Part shown: one piece after another, positions 2,674 to 22,335 of the stretch
Numbering within the stretch: the first letter of the stretch is position 1
Layout: each line of letters starts with the position of its first letter
IMG/VR virus record: IMGVR_UViG_3300024520_000481
Location: 1-24,446 of that record
Length of the DNA: 24,446 nucleotides
Reading direction: 5' to 3' (one strand)
Source of the DNA: a virus
Translations under genes and position numbers: made by a program
Notes under the pieces: generated by a model
The model's input: only the letters and a program-made list of their open reading frames with translations
Database searches by the model: none
What the model was told of the DNA's origin: nothing

Positions 2674-3092
2674 ATTACTATTTCACTAAATGTAGTTTCT
2701 GCTTTCCATTTAATATTAACTGCTGCTCCTGTTACTGTCACAGACATAGATCCAGGAACTGCTGTAATCGCTGTTCCCCAAGCTGCTGTAGCAACATCTT
2801 CTGCTATCATTTCATCTGTTACTGTATCAACAATAGAAGTGACACCTCCAAATTGCTTTATAGCACCTCTAAATTCATGACACCAAACATTTCCTAAAAC
2901 TGTTGATATAGCAGTAACTCTTGTTACAAAAGATTGAACAGTTCCATTCGCTATAGCTTTTGACGAAGTAAGCAAAAATGGAGTAGCATTTACTGTTGTT
3001 GCTGTCTGTACATATTCTCCACCACCACCTGCAGCAGTACTAACTTCTTGAAATCTTTTAGGTAATAGTGGATTAAATATTTGTTTTCCCAT
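2670..3092 (-). CDS. Small fibre tip/head-domain protein
   Basis: A 140-aa protein with a Gly-rich linker (residues about 20-26) after a short N-terminal region, then a beta-rich domain. The C-terminal pattern VTVTGAAVNIKWKAETTFSEI resembles the end of small beta-sandwich head domains found at the C-termini of phage fibres, where a V-T-G stretch is followed by an I-x-W strand. It ends in a TGA overlapping the next ATG. The single-base spacer after the preceding gene, the coupling to the next gene and the tiny size suggest a separately encoded fibre subunit or knob. The receptor-binding role is inferred. Confidence 0.65.
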   Translation of the reverse strand: MGKQIFNPLLPKRFQEVSTAAGGGGEYVQTATTVNATPFLLTSSKAIANGTVQSFVTRVTAISTVLGNVWCHEFRGAIKQFGGVTSIVDTVTDEMIAEDVATAAWGTAITAVPGSMSVTVTGAAVNIKWKAETTFSEIVI

Positions 3093-3093
3093 T

Positions 3094-3435
3094 TTATGAT
3101 AAAGTTGAAGTAGCTACATGATATGTACCTGCACCACCGTTGTAAGTAAATGTTTCTCTAACCGTTAGCCCAAGACTAGCAGAAGAATAAACTATCTCAT
3201 CTATTCTTTGATCTGCTAAACCCCCGCTTAACCAAGTATAAGTTTCTACTAAATCATTAGCTTCTGTTTTTAATTTTTCTAAGTTACTTTTTATTATGCC
3301 TGTTCCACCAGTGATTGAAGAATTAATAACTTTTAATTCTATTAATTTCTTAACTATTGCGTTTAAAGCTCCTAATTCCGTGTTTTTATTAGACGAACCT
3401 GTTCTACCAGGAAGTCCAAGTCTAGGTCCTGCCAT
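3094..3435 (-). CDS. Small virion/fibre-associated protein
   Basis: A 113-aa protein with a flexible N-terminus (MAGPRLGLPGRTG), a helical middle segment (residues about 20-68, Leu/Ile/Lys rich and probably coiled-coil) and a beta-rich C-terminus ending YNGGAGTYHVATSTLS. The helix-then-strand layout suits a trimeric fibre shaft segment. It lies in the run of overlapping or abutting fibre genes, one base before the 140-aa gene. No recognised enzymatic motif is present. It is called structural from context and secondary-structure reading only. Confidence 0.65.
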   Translation of the reverse strand: MAGPRLGLPGRTGSSNKNTELGALNAIVKKLIELKVINSSITGGTGIIKSNLEKLKTEANDLVETYTWLSGGLADQRIDEIVYSSASLGLTVRETFTYNGGAGTYHVATSTLS

Positions 3436-3441
3436 GATTTA

Positions 3442-3660
3442 TTATGCTTTATAAGATATTGTATTATCAGTTGAGTTTTTATATAATTGACCAGTAGTTA
3501 TTCCTGCAGCGCCTGCAGCTGCGTCGTCTACATATTCAGGTAAAGCTTGTAATAATTGAAGTACAAAAGTATGCACTGCAACTGGATTGTCCATAAGTAT
3601 TTTGGACTTTGCTCCTGTTACTGCTGTTCTTCTGTCGATAAATAATTTGTTACTTGACAT
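3442..3660 (-). CDS. Short fibre protein with shared N-terminal anchor
   Basis: A 72-aa protein. Its N-terminus (FIDRRTAVTGAKSKILMDNP) is clearly related to the N-terminus of the 526-aa fibre immediately upstream (FIDKRVFVTGRKSVLSLDNP). Its C-terminus has a D-D-A-A-A-G-A-A-G stretch and a G-Q-L-Y-K...I-S-Y-K ending, a pattern frequent in short phage fibre and spike proteins. The shared N-terminus suggests both proteins dock on the same virion site, the short one possibly as a truncated or decoy fibre or an adaptor. ATG start, preceded by a very AT-rich leader. Confidence 0.7.
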   Translation of the reverse strand: MSSNKLFIDRRTAVTGAKSKILMDNPVAVHTFVLQLLQALPEYVDDAAAGAAGITTGQLYKNSTDNTISYKA

Positions 3661-3707
3661 AATTTTGAATTTTAATATTATTAATATTTTATTGTTATTT
3701 TATTATT

Positions 3708-5288
3708 TTAATTATATGATATAACAAACCACTCTGTTCCATTGCTTACAACAGTCATAACTTCATATTGTGAATTCAGCGGTTGATCATTTACACCATC
3801 TATTGTTTCAACTCCATTACCTACTATGTGTACAACACCTGCTCCAGCATCAATTTTTTTAATAGTTATTTGTTGATTAGCTCTTGCTACTAGAGGTAAT
3901 GTTATATTTTTATCTATTGCTCCAGTAGTTACTAAAACAATTTCTTTATTATTTGCTGTATAATTTATTGCAGTACTAACAACATTTATAGAATCTTCCC
4001 AATTAATAGCATTTCCTCCATCATTAACAAGACTCTGACCTGCAAGACCATCTACTATTGGGAAATCATAAGAATAAGCAGGGGAGTTATTATTTCCAAA
4101 TCTTACTCCGCTAGTTAAATCTAAATCTATATACATGTCGGCTGCACCAGTATCTCTTGCACTCAGTGTTATTCCTTGATCAGAATTTACTGTAATTAAA
4201 GATCTTAAATTATCCGTCTCATCACTTATAAGTATCGAAGTATCAAAAGAAATAGATCTTTCAAAATTTTGACTAGGAACAGCCTGATACATTATAGGTT
4301 GGGGAGGATATGTTGCAATTACAGCACTTATTGCTGTAGAGGGAGTAAGTCCACTGCCTCCACTTAAAGTATGGGATACACCTGTAGAAAGTGGTCCCCA
4401 ATTTGATCCTAAATAATATATTACTGTAGCTGTGTTTGAAGGATTTAATAAATTCCAATCTATTACTAGTTGTTCTATTGTGTTTGCTCCATCAGTAGTT
4501 ATTACTATTGAATTTCCTATTGTACCATAATTATCTGCAATTATTTCAAATGAGAATCCAATTGCAGGATTAACTATTCCTGTAGTAGCCTGTGTTCCTG
4601 TTGTAGAGATATCAGAAATAATTCCTGGTCCATATAAAGGATTTGTTCCTATTCCTAAACTTAAATTAGTATCTGCAACTGTTCCACTTTCTTTTACTTC
4701 CCATAAACCTGCATTTGCTACTTCTAAATTTTCACTTGACCCTATTCCTACACCTCCAAGTTTAACTGTTCCTGCAGGTGATTCTGTAAGTCCTAAACCT
4801 ACATTTAATAAACCACTTGGATCAGCCCATTCACATGTTCCACCTGTAACAGGTCCTGCAGATGATTGTAAAGTTAATATTTGTCCAATTGTACCAGTAG
4901 AAGCTACAATACTAGGAGTAATTAATTTTACTGTTGAATCTCCTCGCAGCATTAAAGTTTGTGCAGATCTTATAGCTATAGTTTCTGTATATTGAGTAAA
5001 CCAAAAATCTCCTGTAAAGTCTAAATCTACAGTATCAAATGCAAACTGATGTCCTCCTCCTGCAACTGTAGTACCATGTAATAATGTACCACCTAATTCT
5101 GTACAATTAGTTTGTGTTCCAGTTATAGGATCTAACGCTGTTTGAATATTTAATCCATTTTGAGCACAAGAAACACCCATTAATGAAATTTGACTATTCG
5201 TAAAAGCAGTTAGATTAAACGGATTATCTAAAGAAAGAACAGATTTTCTTCCTGTTACAAATACACGTTTATCTATAAAATACTCCAT
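3708..5288 (-). CDS. Modular fibre protein
   Basis: A 526-aa fibre taken from the ATG at 5288. A GTG at 5315 would add nine residues but overlap the upstream gene by 20 bases and lacks the match to the 72-aa paralogue, whose anchor motif begins right after its own start. Modules in order: N-terminal anchor (FIDKRVFVTGRK); a G-x-x-G-Q-x-L...W repeat unit at about residues 132-157; an ADN-x-G-x-IGN-x-IVIT domain at about 230-310; a second GQSL...W unit at about 414-431; and a C-terminal domain with ITLPLVARANQQITIKKID, VETIDG and a W-F-V-I-S ending, widely seen at the ends of phage fibres. This makes it a probable host-recognition or head/tail fibre. The stop is TAA. Confidence 0.8.
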   Translation of the reverse strand: MEYFIDKRVFVTGRKSVLSLDNPFNLTAFTNSQISLMGVSCAQNGLNIQTALDPITGTQTNCTELGGTLLHGTTVAGGGHQFAFDTVDLDFTGDFWFTQYTETIAIRSAQTLMLRGDSTVKLITPSIVASTGTIGQILTLQSSAGPVTGGTCEWADPSGLLNVGLGLTESPAGTVKLGGVGIGSSENLEVANAGLWEVKESGTVADTNLSLGIGTNPLYGPGIISDISTTGTQATTGIVNPAIGFSFEIIADNYGTIGNSIVITTDGANTIEQLVIDWNLLNPSNTATVIYYLGSNWGPLSTGVSHTLSGGSGLTPSTAISAVIATYPPQPIMYQAVPSQNFERSISFDTSILISDETDNLRSLITVNSDQGITLSARDTGAADMYIDLDLTSGVRFGNNNSPAYSYDFPIVDGLAGQSLVNDGGNAINWEDSINVVSTAINYTANNKEIVLVTTGAIDKNITLPLVARANQQITIKKIDAGAGVVHIVGNGVETIDGVNDQPLNSQYEVMTVVSNGTEWFVISYN

Positions 5289-5295
5289 AGTTAAT

Positions 5296-5535
5296 TTAAC
5301 ACCCTCTACAGGCACTAGAATAGTTAGTTAATAGTAATTGTCTATATTTATTAAGATCGTTAATAATAGCACCATTTAAAGAACAGCTAACGATATTGTC
5401 TTCAATTGTAATAAATCGTTTAACTGTATTAATATCACTTAGTAATACTTCCATATTACAATTATACCCATATAATATCCTTGATGCATATTGAGATAAT
5501 TGTTTAACAAAATGACATTTTAAATCTGGATCCAT
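5296..5535 (-). CDS. Small Cys-containing protein ending in CxxC
   Basis: A 79-aa protein with five cysteines (C7, C26, C51, C76, C79) ending in C-R-G-C at the very C-terminus. Its opening DLKCHFVK and helical Leu/Ile-rich segment resemble the C-terminal region of the 414-aa protein encoded just upstream (TLKCQVVSKWVL...), which also ends in a CxxC. It may therefore be a detached copy or partner of that domain. One base separates it from the upstream stop. A small structural or fibre-linking protein is the likely role; metal binding or disulfide linkage through the terminal CxxC is possible but unproven. Confidence 0.6.
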   Translation of the reverse strand: MDPDLKCHFVKQLSQYASRILYGYNCNMEVLLSDINTVKRFITIEDNIVSCSLNGAIINDLNKYRQLLLTNYSSACRGC

Positions 5536-10183: not shown

Positions 10184-10208
10184 TTTTTTAGTTAGTTTTT
10201 AAATTATG

Positions 10209-13065: not shown

Positions 13066-14634
13066 CTATACACTTAATTTTTTACCATCAAATATTATAT
13101 CTTTTATTGATAATAATGATTTTGCAACTGTTGATGCATTAATTAAAGAGTCAATAAGAACCGAAGATGGATCGTATACTCTATATTTAGCATTAGATAA
13201 TTTGTATAATTTATTATCTCTTAAGTCTAATGCAAAACCACTAGTTAATTTTTCTTTATATGTTTCATAGTTATCAGACAAATCTGCATTAGCTAATAAT
13301 TGTTTAAAAGGTTCACTTAATGAATCAAGAATTAATTGACGACCTGATTCAAAACATAATTCTTTTCTGTATTTTTCATTTAATGTTTTTTGGCAATTTA
13401 AATAAGCAGAACCACCACCCACATTAACACCTTGTTTGATAGCTGATTCTACTGCTAATACTGCGTCATCAAGTCTATCCTTTAATTCTTTCATCTCCAT
13501 GTGAGTTCTTCCTCCTACATGTATAACTGCAACTCCTCCTGTTAAATTAGCTAATCTTTTCTTATGAAATTTACGATCTACTTTTGTTATAAGTGTTTCA
13601 TCACTATTATCATCATCTGATAGTATTTCTTTAATATCATAAATTATGTCTTCAATTAATTCCTCATCGTTATTACCATCTAAGATAGAAGTATACCATT
13701 CGTCTACTTTTACCTGTTTAGCAAATCCTAAATTACGAGGATCAAAATCATCCTGTGCTCCTATAACATAAGATGATGTTAATGCAGCCAAATCATTCAT
13801 AAGTAGGTGTTTTCTATCTCCATGTCCATCATTAGTAACAAAACAAATAGGATTACCTGTAGCACCCATAAACTTTTCTATTTGAGTAAGAGTAATATCA
13901 GTGATATCCTCACAAAATACCACAAGAGGTTTCCCCATTAAATGTTTAATGTATTGATCAATATCGGTTACAGCTTGAATAATATCATCAACAATAAGAA
14001 CATGACAATCATCTGCTTTAAAACACATTTCACGAGTATCGTTAACCATAAAGTTTTCAATCCAACCTTTATGTAATTTCATACCTTTTGTTTTATTAAC
14101 ACGTGTTTCTGAATATTGACTTTCCTTAACTTCGATATCACCATATAAACCAATATCATCAATTATAGAATAAATAAATTCTCCTAGCTTTTCATCATTG
14201 GATGAAATAGATGCTATTTCTTTTAATAGTTCTTTATTGTTTTCAATTTTAATTGAATCATAATTGACATAATCAACAACATTTTGAACAGCTTTATCAA
14301 TCTGTTTACTTAACTCATAATAACTTAATCCATTATCAATTAATTTAAGTCCCTCAGTAAGAATATACTGTGCTAATATCATTGTTGTAGTAGTACCATC
14401 ACCACTTGATTTCATAGTTTTTAATGATGCTTCTCTTAATACAGTAATAACCATATTCTCATAATCATCAGCTGACATTATATGTCTTGCGACAGTAACA
14501 CCATCTTTTGTTATATGTGTTCTATTGTTTTCATCATTAAATAAAATTGTTCTACCTTTAGTACCTAATGTTTGTTTAACAGTATTGGCAAGGGTATTAA
14601 CCCCATGTAAAATAATTTCAGTTGTTTTATTCAT
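13066..14634 (-). CDS. groEL: Phage-encoded group I chaperonin (GroEL-like)
   Basis: A 522-aa protein that aligns by eye along the full length of bacterial GroEL (about 548 aa). Equatorial/ATP motifs are kept: VKQTLGTKGRT (residues 19-29), ITKDGVTVAR with D44 (E. coli D52), SGDGTTTT with D79 (D87), RLDDAV with D390 (D398), NVGGG at 404-408, and YDPSSV with D488 (D495). The apical domain is recognisable: KGWIENFMVN (188-198), GKPLVV, GHGDRK (270-275). The intermediate stretch LANLTGGVAVIHVGG is also kept. The Gly-Met tail of GroEL is absent and P33 is replaced by T25. It should form an ATP-driven folding ring in the host cytoplasm. It lies between portal and scaffold, so capsid or other virion proteins are its likely clients. 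It is the only gene here ending in TAG, backed by TAA two codons later. Confidence 0.93.
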   Translation of the reverse strand: MNKTTEIILHGVNTLANTVKQTLGTKGRTILFNDENNRTHITKDGVTVARHIMSADDYENMVITVLREASLKTMKSSGDGTTTTMILAQYILTEGLKLIDNGLSYYELSKQIDKAVQNVVDYVNYDSIKIENNKELLKEIASISSNDEKLGEFIYSIIDDIGLYGDIEVKESQYSETRVNKTKGMKLHKGWIENFMVNDTREMCFKADDCHVLIVDDIIQAVTDIDQYIKHLMGKPLVVFCEDITDITLTQIEKFMGATGNPICFVTNDGHGDRKHLLMNDLAALTSSYVIGAQDDFDPRNLGFAKQVKVDEWYTSILDGNNDEELIEDIIYDIKEILSDDDNSDETLITKVDRKFHKKRLANLTGGVAVIHVGGRTHMEMKELKDRLDDAVLAVESAIKQGVNVGGGSAYLNCQKTLNEKYRKELCFESGRQLILDSLSEPFKQLLANADLSDNYETYKEKLTSGFALDLRDNKLYKLSNAKYRVYDPSSVLIDSLINASTVAKSLLSIKDIIFDGKKLSV

Positions 14635-14635
14635 T

Positions 14636-14658
14636 TTAGTTAGTTAGTTAGTTAGTTA
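14636..14658 (-). repeat. TTAG tandem repeat in the chaperonin leader
   Basis: Five exact TTAG units plus TTA on the plus strand, filling the whole gap between the portal stop and the chaperonin start. In the RNA sense this is CTAA repeated and running straight into AAATG. The first TAA is the portal stop itself. Because the period is four, the repeat places a stop codon in all three frames immediately upstream of the chaperonin ATG, and gives an unstructured A/C/U leader without a Shine-Dalgarno. Confidence 0.8.
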
Positions 14659-19848: not shown

Positions 19849-20167
19849 TCTTTTTAGTTAGTAAATTATAAAAATATTCAAGATCTAAAGCTGCTAAGTT
19901 TATTGAATGGTTTTTATATTCATTTATTATTTCATTTCCATATAAGACCCAATCTGAGTAAGTATATGGTGGTTCTGAATTTTCATGAGTAATAGGGTAT
20001 AAATATTTTGATATTGTTATATAGTTTCTATCTCCTTTATAATAAGGGTGGGCAAATGTACATATAGGTTTTTTAAGTTTTAACTTTAAACCTTTAAGAT
20101 CAAATAACCTCCACCATTTACCTTTATTGATACTATCAACGATAGAATGATTTTGTGTTATTATCAT
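19841..20167 (-). CDS. Unknown 108-aa protein between terminase genes
   Basis: A basic, aromatic-rich 108-aa protein with no recognised family. It contains GKWWRLFDLKGLKLKLKKP near residues 16-34 and a YPITHENSEPPYTYSDWVLYG stretch in the middle, and ends in a short helix. Its start directly abuts the preceding stop and its end overlaps the terL start by eight bases, so it is cotranslated with packaging genes. Size and location would allow a packaging accessory role. It lacks the mobile loop and beta-barrel pattern expected of a GroES-type co-chaperonin. Function unknown. Confidence 0.65.
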   Translation of the reverse strand: MIITQNHSIVDSINKGKWWRLFDLKGLKLKLKKPICTFAHPYYKGDRNYITISKYLYPITHENSEPPYTYSDWVLYGNEIINEYKNHSINLAALDLEYFYNLLTKKNV

Positions 20168-21426: not shown

Positions 21427-22335
21427 TTAATTATCTAATTTGTTTTTAACCCATTTAGCTGTTTTTAAACAAGCGTTTATTCTTTCATTGCGAGTTCCCA
21501 TTATCTTTTGACAATCCTTACCACTTGTATGAAATCCCCATTCATCTAATATAGAACCAAATTTATCAAACTCAGCGAGATCTGTTTCTCTTAGTAATTG
21601 AAAATTAGCTTCAAAATCAGAATCACCGTCACTACCTTGTGTTCTAAACTTCCAATCCGATACTGCAGCTTTAACATTATTAAAATGTTGTTCTGTTATC
21701 TCATCGCTTAAATTATCACCTCTTGTACTATAAACACAATATCCAACAGTATTTTCTAATTTACTTGGACTATTAGTTGAAGATATTGCATTAGAATGAA
21801 ATGAATGTAAATATCCATAATACCCTCTCTTTAGCCAACTTCTTACTAACTCTGTTCTAGAAGATAATGATGTATCCTTATAAGGATGATATGTACGTAT
21901 GGCCATTATACCATTTTTAGTTAATTCCTCTATAAACATCTCTGCTATTATTCTATTCTCATATCCTTCATAGTAATGACCACCATCATGTAATTTTAAT
22001 CCTTTATGATATCCTCGTTTACCAGAAGTAACATACTCACCTGAATCACTAATACCTCCATGACCAGCATCAACGAATACAACAAATCTATTTTTATTAA
22101 ATGTTAATAGATTGCTGTTATTAACATGCATTGCCTTATATGCTCTATCTAAAACAGCAATGGTGTTTGTACCAGCTATACCGTCTACATGTAAATTATA
22201 TAATTCTTGAAATTCCCATACTGCTTGTTTTGTACCATTTCCATAATCACCATCAACTGTTATTCTTTTATTTAATACTTTCTTTAACTTATATTGAAGA
22301 TCTTTTACATTAGATCCCTTATCGCCCTTTTTCAT
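21427..22335 (-). CDS. Endolysin: peptidoglycan-binding domain plus N-acetylmuramoyl-L-alanine amidase
   Basis: A 302-aa lysis enzyme that cleaves the amide bond between N-acetylmuramic acid and the stem peptide. Residues about 3-66 are a PG_binding_1 domain (GDKGSNVKDLQYKL, VDGDYGNGTKQAVWEFQ, VDGIAGTNTIAVL). Residues about 84-300 are an Amidase_3 domain. Zinc ligands read as H92 (VDAGHGG), E126 (GYENRI) and H180 (HSFHSNA), with the catalytic Glu probably E265 (LDEWGF), so it appears active. There is no signal peptide, so it should need a holin to reach the periplasm; the 93-aa membrane protein is a candidate. The binding-domain-first order is typical of cell-wall targeting lysins. Confidence 0.88.
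   Translation of the reverse strand: MKKGDKGSNVKDLQYKLKKVLNKRITVDGDYGNGTKQAVWEFQELYNLHVDGIAGTNTIAVLDRAYKAMHVNNSNLLTFNKNRFVVFVDAGHGGISDSGEYVTSGKRGYHKGLKLHDGGHYYEGYENRIIAEMFIEELTKNGIMAIRTYHPYKDTSLSSRTELVRSWLKRGYYGYLHSFHSNAISSTNSPSKLENTVGYCVYSTRGDNLSDEITEQHFNNVKAAVSDWKFRTQGSDGDSDFEANFQLLRETDLAEFDKFGSILDEWGFHTSGKDCQKIMGTRNERINACLKTAKWVKNKLDN

Follow-up and report, generated by a model that had tools for sequence, protein, structure and literature searches.

Host GroEL was first discovered via phage head assembly. The stretch of viral DNA analysed here (24,446 nucleotides, hereafter the window) carries a GroEL-like gene of its own among putative head genes, which raises the question of whether this gene is a host passenger, a general-purpose chaperonin or a folding machine for virion proteins. 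The open reading frame is intact, starts with ATG and fills exactly the span given for it in Table 1. The preliminary description had called its product a full-length chaperonin, and profile searches bore this out: Pfam PF00118 (Cpn60_TCP1) matched with 150.8 bits (cut-off 34.3) and PHROG_5725 ('chaperonin groEL') with 360.6 bits, covering residues 2-517. The top PDB sequence match was 9rwr, an ancestral Fibrobacteres-Chlorobi-Bacteroidetes chaperonin (2.6e-77). The AlphaFold model (mean pLDDT 86.8) matched GroEL/Hsp60 closely (Foldseek 4.4e-41, TM 0.82; VIA Z 38-41 with ~500 residues aligned), and the equatorial-intermediate-apical fold of GroEL/Hsp60 is thus predicted for the phage protein. 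At the sequence level, the gene is confirmed as encoding a complete member of the Cpn60/GroEL (group I) family.

Table 1. Chaperonin gene and its surroundings in the window
Feature	Coordinates	Strand	Evidence
Terminase large subunit (TerL), 820 aa	17386..19848	-	PHROG_6681, 1.6e-75; Crassvirales TerL matches at 25-29% identity
Portal protein, 907 aa	14656..17379	-	PHROG_6547, 1.7e-80
Portal-GroEL spacer, tandem (TAAC)n tract just before the chaperonin ATG	14635..14655	-	Repeat number varies among close relatives
Cpn60/GroEL-family chaperonin, 522 aa	13066..14634	-	Pfam, PHROG and PDB matches, alignment, model
Gln/acid-rich protein in scaffold position, 376 aa	11860..12990	-	No family match; syntenic homologue in relatives
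Crassvirales-type major capsid protein (MCP), 532 aa	10221..11819	-	Pfam PF23898 (Crass_capsid), 3.7e-35; PHROG_11589
Protein conserved directly 3' of MCP in relatives, 360 aa	9101..10183	-	No family match
Conserved head-module protein, 287 aa	8235..9098	-	PHROG_15924, unknown function; syntenic

The chaperonin gene is separated from the portal gene by 21 nt and from the next gene by 75 nt, with all of these genes on one strand. The tight run described earlier, with the portal on one side of the chaperonin and a scaffold-position gene on the other, was thus recovered, and family matches support the portal, TerL and MCP assignments. The earlier labels of the neighbours held for the portal and the MCP but not for the 'scaffold': Pfam and PHROG searches with the 376-aa protein returned no family match, and we call it scaffold-like by its position. 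By its MCP, portal and TerL in conserved order, the uncultured carrier phage appears to be of Crassvirales type, placed within or beside the order on the basis of this 24 kb fragment. Compared with named records, the MCP and TerL matched mostly crAss-like phages at 20-29% identity; since identity to the named crAss-like phages is this low, the lineage stands, as judged from these two proteins, far from the described crAss-like families.

Several further features of the window were recorded. A gene for a peptidoglycan-binding and amidase-like endolysin lies in the same run (21427-22335; PF01471, with PF01520 just under the cut-off). On the tail side, two adjacent open reading frames (3442-3660 and 3708-5315) both start with a similar FID(R/K)R..VTG.KS.L..DNP motif, which suggests a duplicated attachment or assembly segment. 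Tracts of CTAACTAA were found directly 5' of start codons at 14635-14655, 10188-10195 and 19854-19861. All six CTAACTAA sites in the window have an ATG no more than 40 nt away, as do 8 of the 13 plus-strand sites in a 178 kb relative, and the tracts may possibly serve as a translation or expression signal. The tract before the chaperonin gene is a TAAC microsatellite that varies by one unit in length among close relatives. A promoter scan gave hits at chance level only.

The relatives used to follow the gene were collected by IMG/VR scans with GroEL and MCP, as single sequences and as alignments, and span MCP identities of 38-100%. The order TerL-portal-GroEL-scaffold-MCP was found in all 20 contigs that show this stretch and have MCP identity of at least about 50%, as far as the contigs reach and with some near-duplicates among them. 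In four more distant relatives (L134, L136, L138 and L139; MCP identity 38-43%) the portal gene is followed by the scaffold-like gene with no GroEL between them, and in a fifth of the same class (L135) no GroEL precedes the scaffold-like gene and MCP; a Cpn60 search of the whole records of these five found nothing. The slot is thus constant down to about 50% MCP identity, and no relative was found that lacks the chaperonin while sharing an identical capsid protein. The MCP is 525-555 aa long in GroEL-positive and 505-507 aa in GroEL-negative relatives (three sequences of the latter), a hint that a longer MCP goes with the presence of the chaperonin.

GroEL-positive phages were monophyletic in both the GroEL tree (support 100/100) and the MCP tree (100/98), and both trees recovered the subclade of L130, L131, L132 and L137. 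Because each protein forms one clade with the same two subclades, a single acquisition followed by vertical inheritance with the head genes is the simplest account. The first GroEL tree gave long-branch warnings from PBS1, Aphrodite1 and Mx1; it was rebuilt with these three left out and intermediate relatives added. The stem of the phage clade was long in both, 4.5 substitutions per site in the first tree and 1.6 in the rebuilt one, with long branches preventing an exact rooting of the clade among chaperonins. The gene is under purifying selection, its dN/dS of 0.045-0.16 being similar to the values for the portal and MCP. The intact reading frame and this ratio (rounded, 0.05-0.16) rule out a chance open reading frame or a pseudogene.

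The same data bear on the origin of the gene. A recently captured host groEL, carried as a passenger without any special link to the head genes, would agree with the membership of the protein in a bacterial family, Cpn60. The phage clade, however, is monophyletic on its long stem, the chaperonin is present in all relatives with MCP identity of at least 50%, and the closest sampled cellular GroELs are only ~34% identical. Furthermore, a scan of 296 Bacteroidota genomes found no chaperonin match at E<=1e-80, with known host GroELs reaching 1e-71 to 1e-75. Given this low identity and the absence of any 1e-80 match in the scanned genomes, the gene is not a recent host gene; together with the trees, which place the phage clade apart, these results rule out recent host capture and make the passenger explanation extremely improbable.

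Alignment with Escherichia coli GroEL, to which the phage protein is about 30% identical, showed the catalytic centre to be preserved. The ATP-site residues listed earlier (D44, D79, D390 and D488) are correct, corresponding to E. coli D52, D87, D398 and D495; TLG (E. coli 30-32), K51, DGTTT (87-91, phage 79-83) and G415 are also kept. Phage residues K43, D44, G78, D79, G80, D390 and D488 do not vary across the alignment of 23 sequences, of which phages contribute 13. Other parts of the protein are altered. By alignment and model it begins at the equivalent of E. coli residue 9, without the N-terminal strand, and this strand is truly absent, since the portal stop codon 21 nt upstream leaves no room for a longer N-terminus; in three deeper relatives (L130, L131 and L132) a long extension is found at this end instead. 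The inter-ring positions 461, 463 and 464 are changed, the GGM tail is absent, and the salt bridges D83-K327, E386-R197 and E409-R501 are lost.

This combination speaks to whether the protein could have given up folding to serve as a scaffold or structural part of procapsids or virions. Both its place amid virion genes and the loss of conserved intersubunit salt bridges would be compatible with such a change, whereas the retention of all ATP-site residues under purifying selection would not be expected from it. In addition, in Cellulophaga phage phi14:2 the GroEL was annotated by sequence similarity, and it was nearby virion proteins that were noted from MS/MS. We consider a structural role improbable.

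The apical domain is altered at positions that in E. coli bind GroES and substrate, as known from GroEL mutants. Y199, Y203, F204, L234, L237, L259, V263 and V264 are replaced by W, F, M, D, I, L, E and K, respectively, i.e. by five hydrophobic and three charged residues (L234D, V263E and V264K, alongside F204M), and every near relative in the comparison has a polar or charged residue at both 263 and 264. These apical positions are also variable in other phage GroELs. A co-chaperonin was sought in two ways. Pfam PF00166 (Cpn10) found none in the records of 19 relatives, 14 of them GroEL-positive, including records of 178, 113, 87 and 84 kb, any of which may be incomplete. A custom profile of phage and bacterial GroES, which recovered the positive controls phi38:1 and elemoE at about 1e-21, found nothing in records of 178, 87 and 66 kb; a lid as divergent as T4 gp31 is beyond the reach of these Cpn10 searches. 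The altered lid contacts and the searches without a Cpn10 point towards a chaperonin that would work without a standard lid. With lid-contact residues and salt bridges lost and no Cpn10 found, the standard GroEL-type machine implied by the preliminary description is weakened. Some binding of GroES may nevertheless be possible, since hydrophobic side chains persist at positions 199, 203, 237 and 259 (W, F, I and L), and host GroES is always available to a phage.

The protein could instead stand in for host GroEL or add to it in a general way, working with host GroES on many clients, in which case the head-module slot would be incidental, a stable insertion point. An intact ATP site would suit such a function, and several Bacteroidota phages do carry GroEL outside their head modules, some with a Cpn10 of their own. 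Against this stand the partly charged GroES and substrate contacts and a slot that is identical in all GroEL-positive relatives despite deep capsid divergence; we therefore regard a general-purpose role as unlikely, though far from implausible.

Inserts were found in the chaperonin and capsid genes of relatives. Four of them (L007, L008, L009 and L010; in L010 at 2984-3985) have an intein of 334 residues that splits the chaperonin ATP motif precisely at the junction of GDG and TTT. It contains Hom_end and LAGLIDADG_3 domains, is similar to the gp41-1 intein and ends in VTHN before Thr; the reading frame is kept through it in L008 and L010, and L007 has frame errors. Its first residue is Pro, not Cys or Ser, and a W and a C sit where class 3 inteins have them, which makes it a candidate class 3-like intein. 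Genes that carry an intein at such a site are usually essential and conserved, and the location of this one in the ATP motif fits the importance of the chaperonin. To our knowledge, no chaperonin intein of the GDG/TTT kind has been described before, and a literature search found no earlier chaperonin intein. L008 also has an in-frame TAA near the chaperonin C-terminus (3834-3836), where L007 has a Leu codon; this is either a sequencing error or decay. In two further relatives the MCP gene is split by inserts (L020, 5079-6107; L025, 6978-10166) containing LAGLIDADG-like endonuclease open reading frames and stop codons. They resemble group I introns, although an Rfam search at the gathering threshold called neither as an intron.

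Taken together, the results make it probable, in our view, that the gene encodes a chaperonin that is driven by ATP, serves virion proteins specifically and possibly needs no lid, as with phage EL. The preliminary idea of a dedicated folding machine is in this way supported in part, with the capsid protein as a putative client. A role in the head module is suggested by the position of the gene, i.e. by guilt by association, the chaperonins of other Bacteroidota phages being located elsewhere. An ancestor of this undescribed crAss-like clade acquired the gene once, and it then became fixed between the portal and capsid genes and was co-inherited with them; its product would be a group I-type, ATP-hydrolysing chaperonin. 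The chaperonin would most likely be produced together with the head proteins and assemble as a ring, to which newly made virion proteins (the portal, the scaffold-like protein, the capsid protein of ~59 kDa, or several of these) may bind. ATP could be used to fold these proteins or to block their aggregation, and host GroES would probably not cap the ring in the canonical way, a mode of action also proposed for the EL chaperonin. A chaperonin acting outside virion assembly, as a counter-defence or host-modulating decoy, is very improbable, because the location among head genes and the constant synteny suit assembly better. A narrower version of the dedicated virion chaperonin, in which it is devoted to the capsid, lid-free, co-evolved with the crAss-like head module and obligatory for the longer capsid protein, is possible but doubtful; if true, it would represent a client-specific chaperonin of a virus. 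The clade, which adds an undescribed crAss-like lineage, offers natural pairs with and without the chaperonin at moderate capsid divergence, and in it both the specialisation of a chaperonin on viral clients and the loss of its lid become directly testable.

The preliminary description placed phage chaperonins in a few large phages, a view that did not survive a wider search: matches were found in 262 of 50,697 phage records, some of which look like host contamination, and complete genomes of 39-72 kb are among them. EL, one of the known carriers, is a Pseudomonas jumbo phage. Its chaperonin is ATP-active, prevents aggregation and shows no interaction with the GroES of E. coli (PMC7185714). 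Like the present protein, EL gp146 is a phage-encoded divergent ATPase of the Cpn60 family with an altered substrate cleft and ring contacts and no known lid (PMC7185714). However, no report describes the EL gene as a fixed member of a capsid module, and the EL protein has been biochemically tested, whereas the present one is known from sequence. Compared with E. coli GroEL, the phage protein shares the fold, the three domains and the ATP-site residues, and differs in the N-terminal strand, several apical contacts, the inter-ring and salt-bridge residues and the GGM tail.

Closer in phage type is the GroEL of Cellulophaga phage phi14:2 (Crassvirales, Steigviridae; AGO48995), which is 28% identical and has an intact ATP site. 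Its gene, in contrast, lies among small genes, with the presumed TerL gene following after ~3.3 kb, and not in the portal-MCP slot, and the protein falls outside the present clade in the GroEL tree. Cellulophaga phi38:1, Calle_2, the Flavobacterium elemovirus and immutovirus are likewise marine or brackish Bacteroidota phages with a chaperonin, but they have a recognisable Cpn10 adjoining or near groEL and carry these genes outside the portal-capsid stretch. In Vibrio phage VB_VaC_TDDLMA the groEL gene does lie inside a run of virion genes, between tail sheath and tail tube; this is a tail module in another type of phage, and the sequence groups with E. coli-type GroEL. We know of no described virus lineage with a complete chaperonin as a fixed, vertically inherited part of its head module. 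A search of the literature, mostly open-access papers, found no paper in which a crAss-like head module includes a chaperonin, and 'chaperon' does not occur in PMC7886860. Phage-encoded GroELs are thus already known, including one in the crAss-like phi14:2 away from the head genes; new here is a chaperonin with lost lid contacts and no Cpn10 detected, of single origin, in a fixed portal-capsid slot across a deep crAss-like clade.
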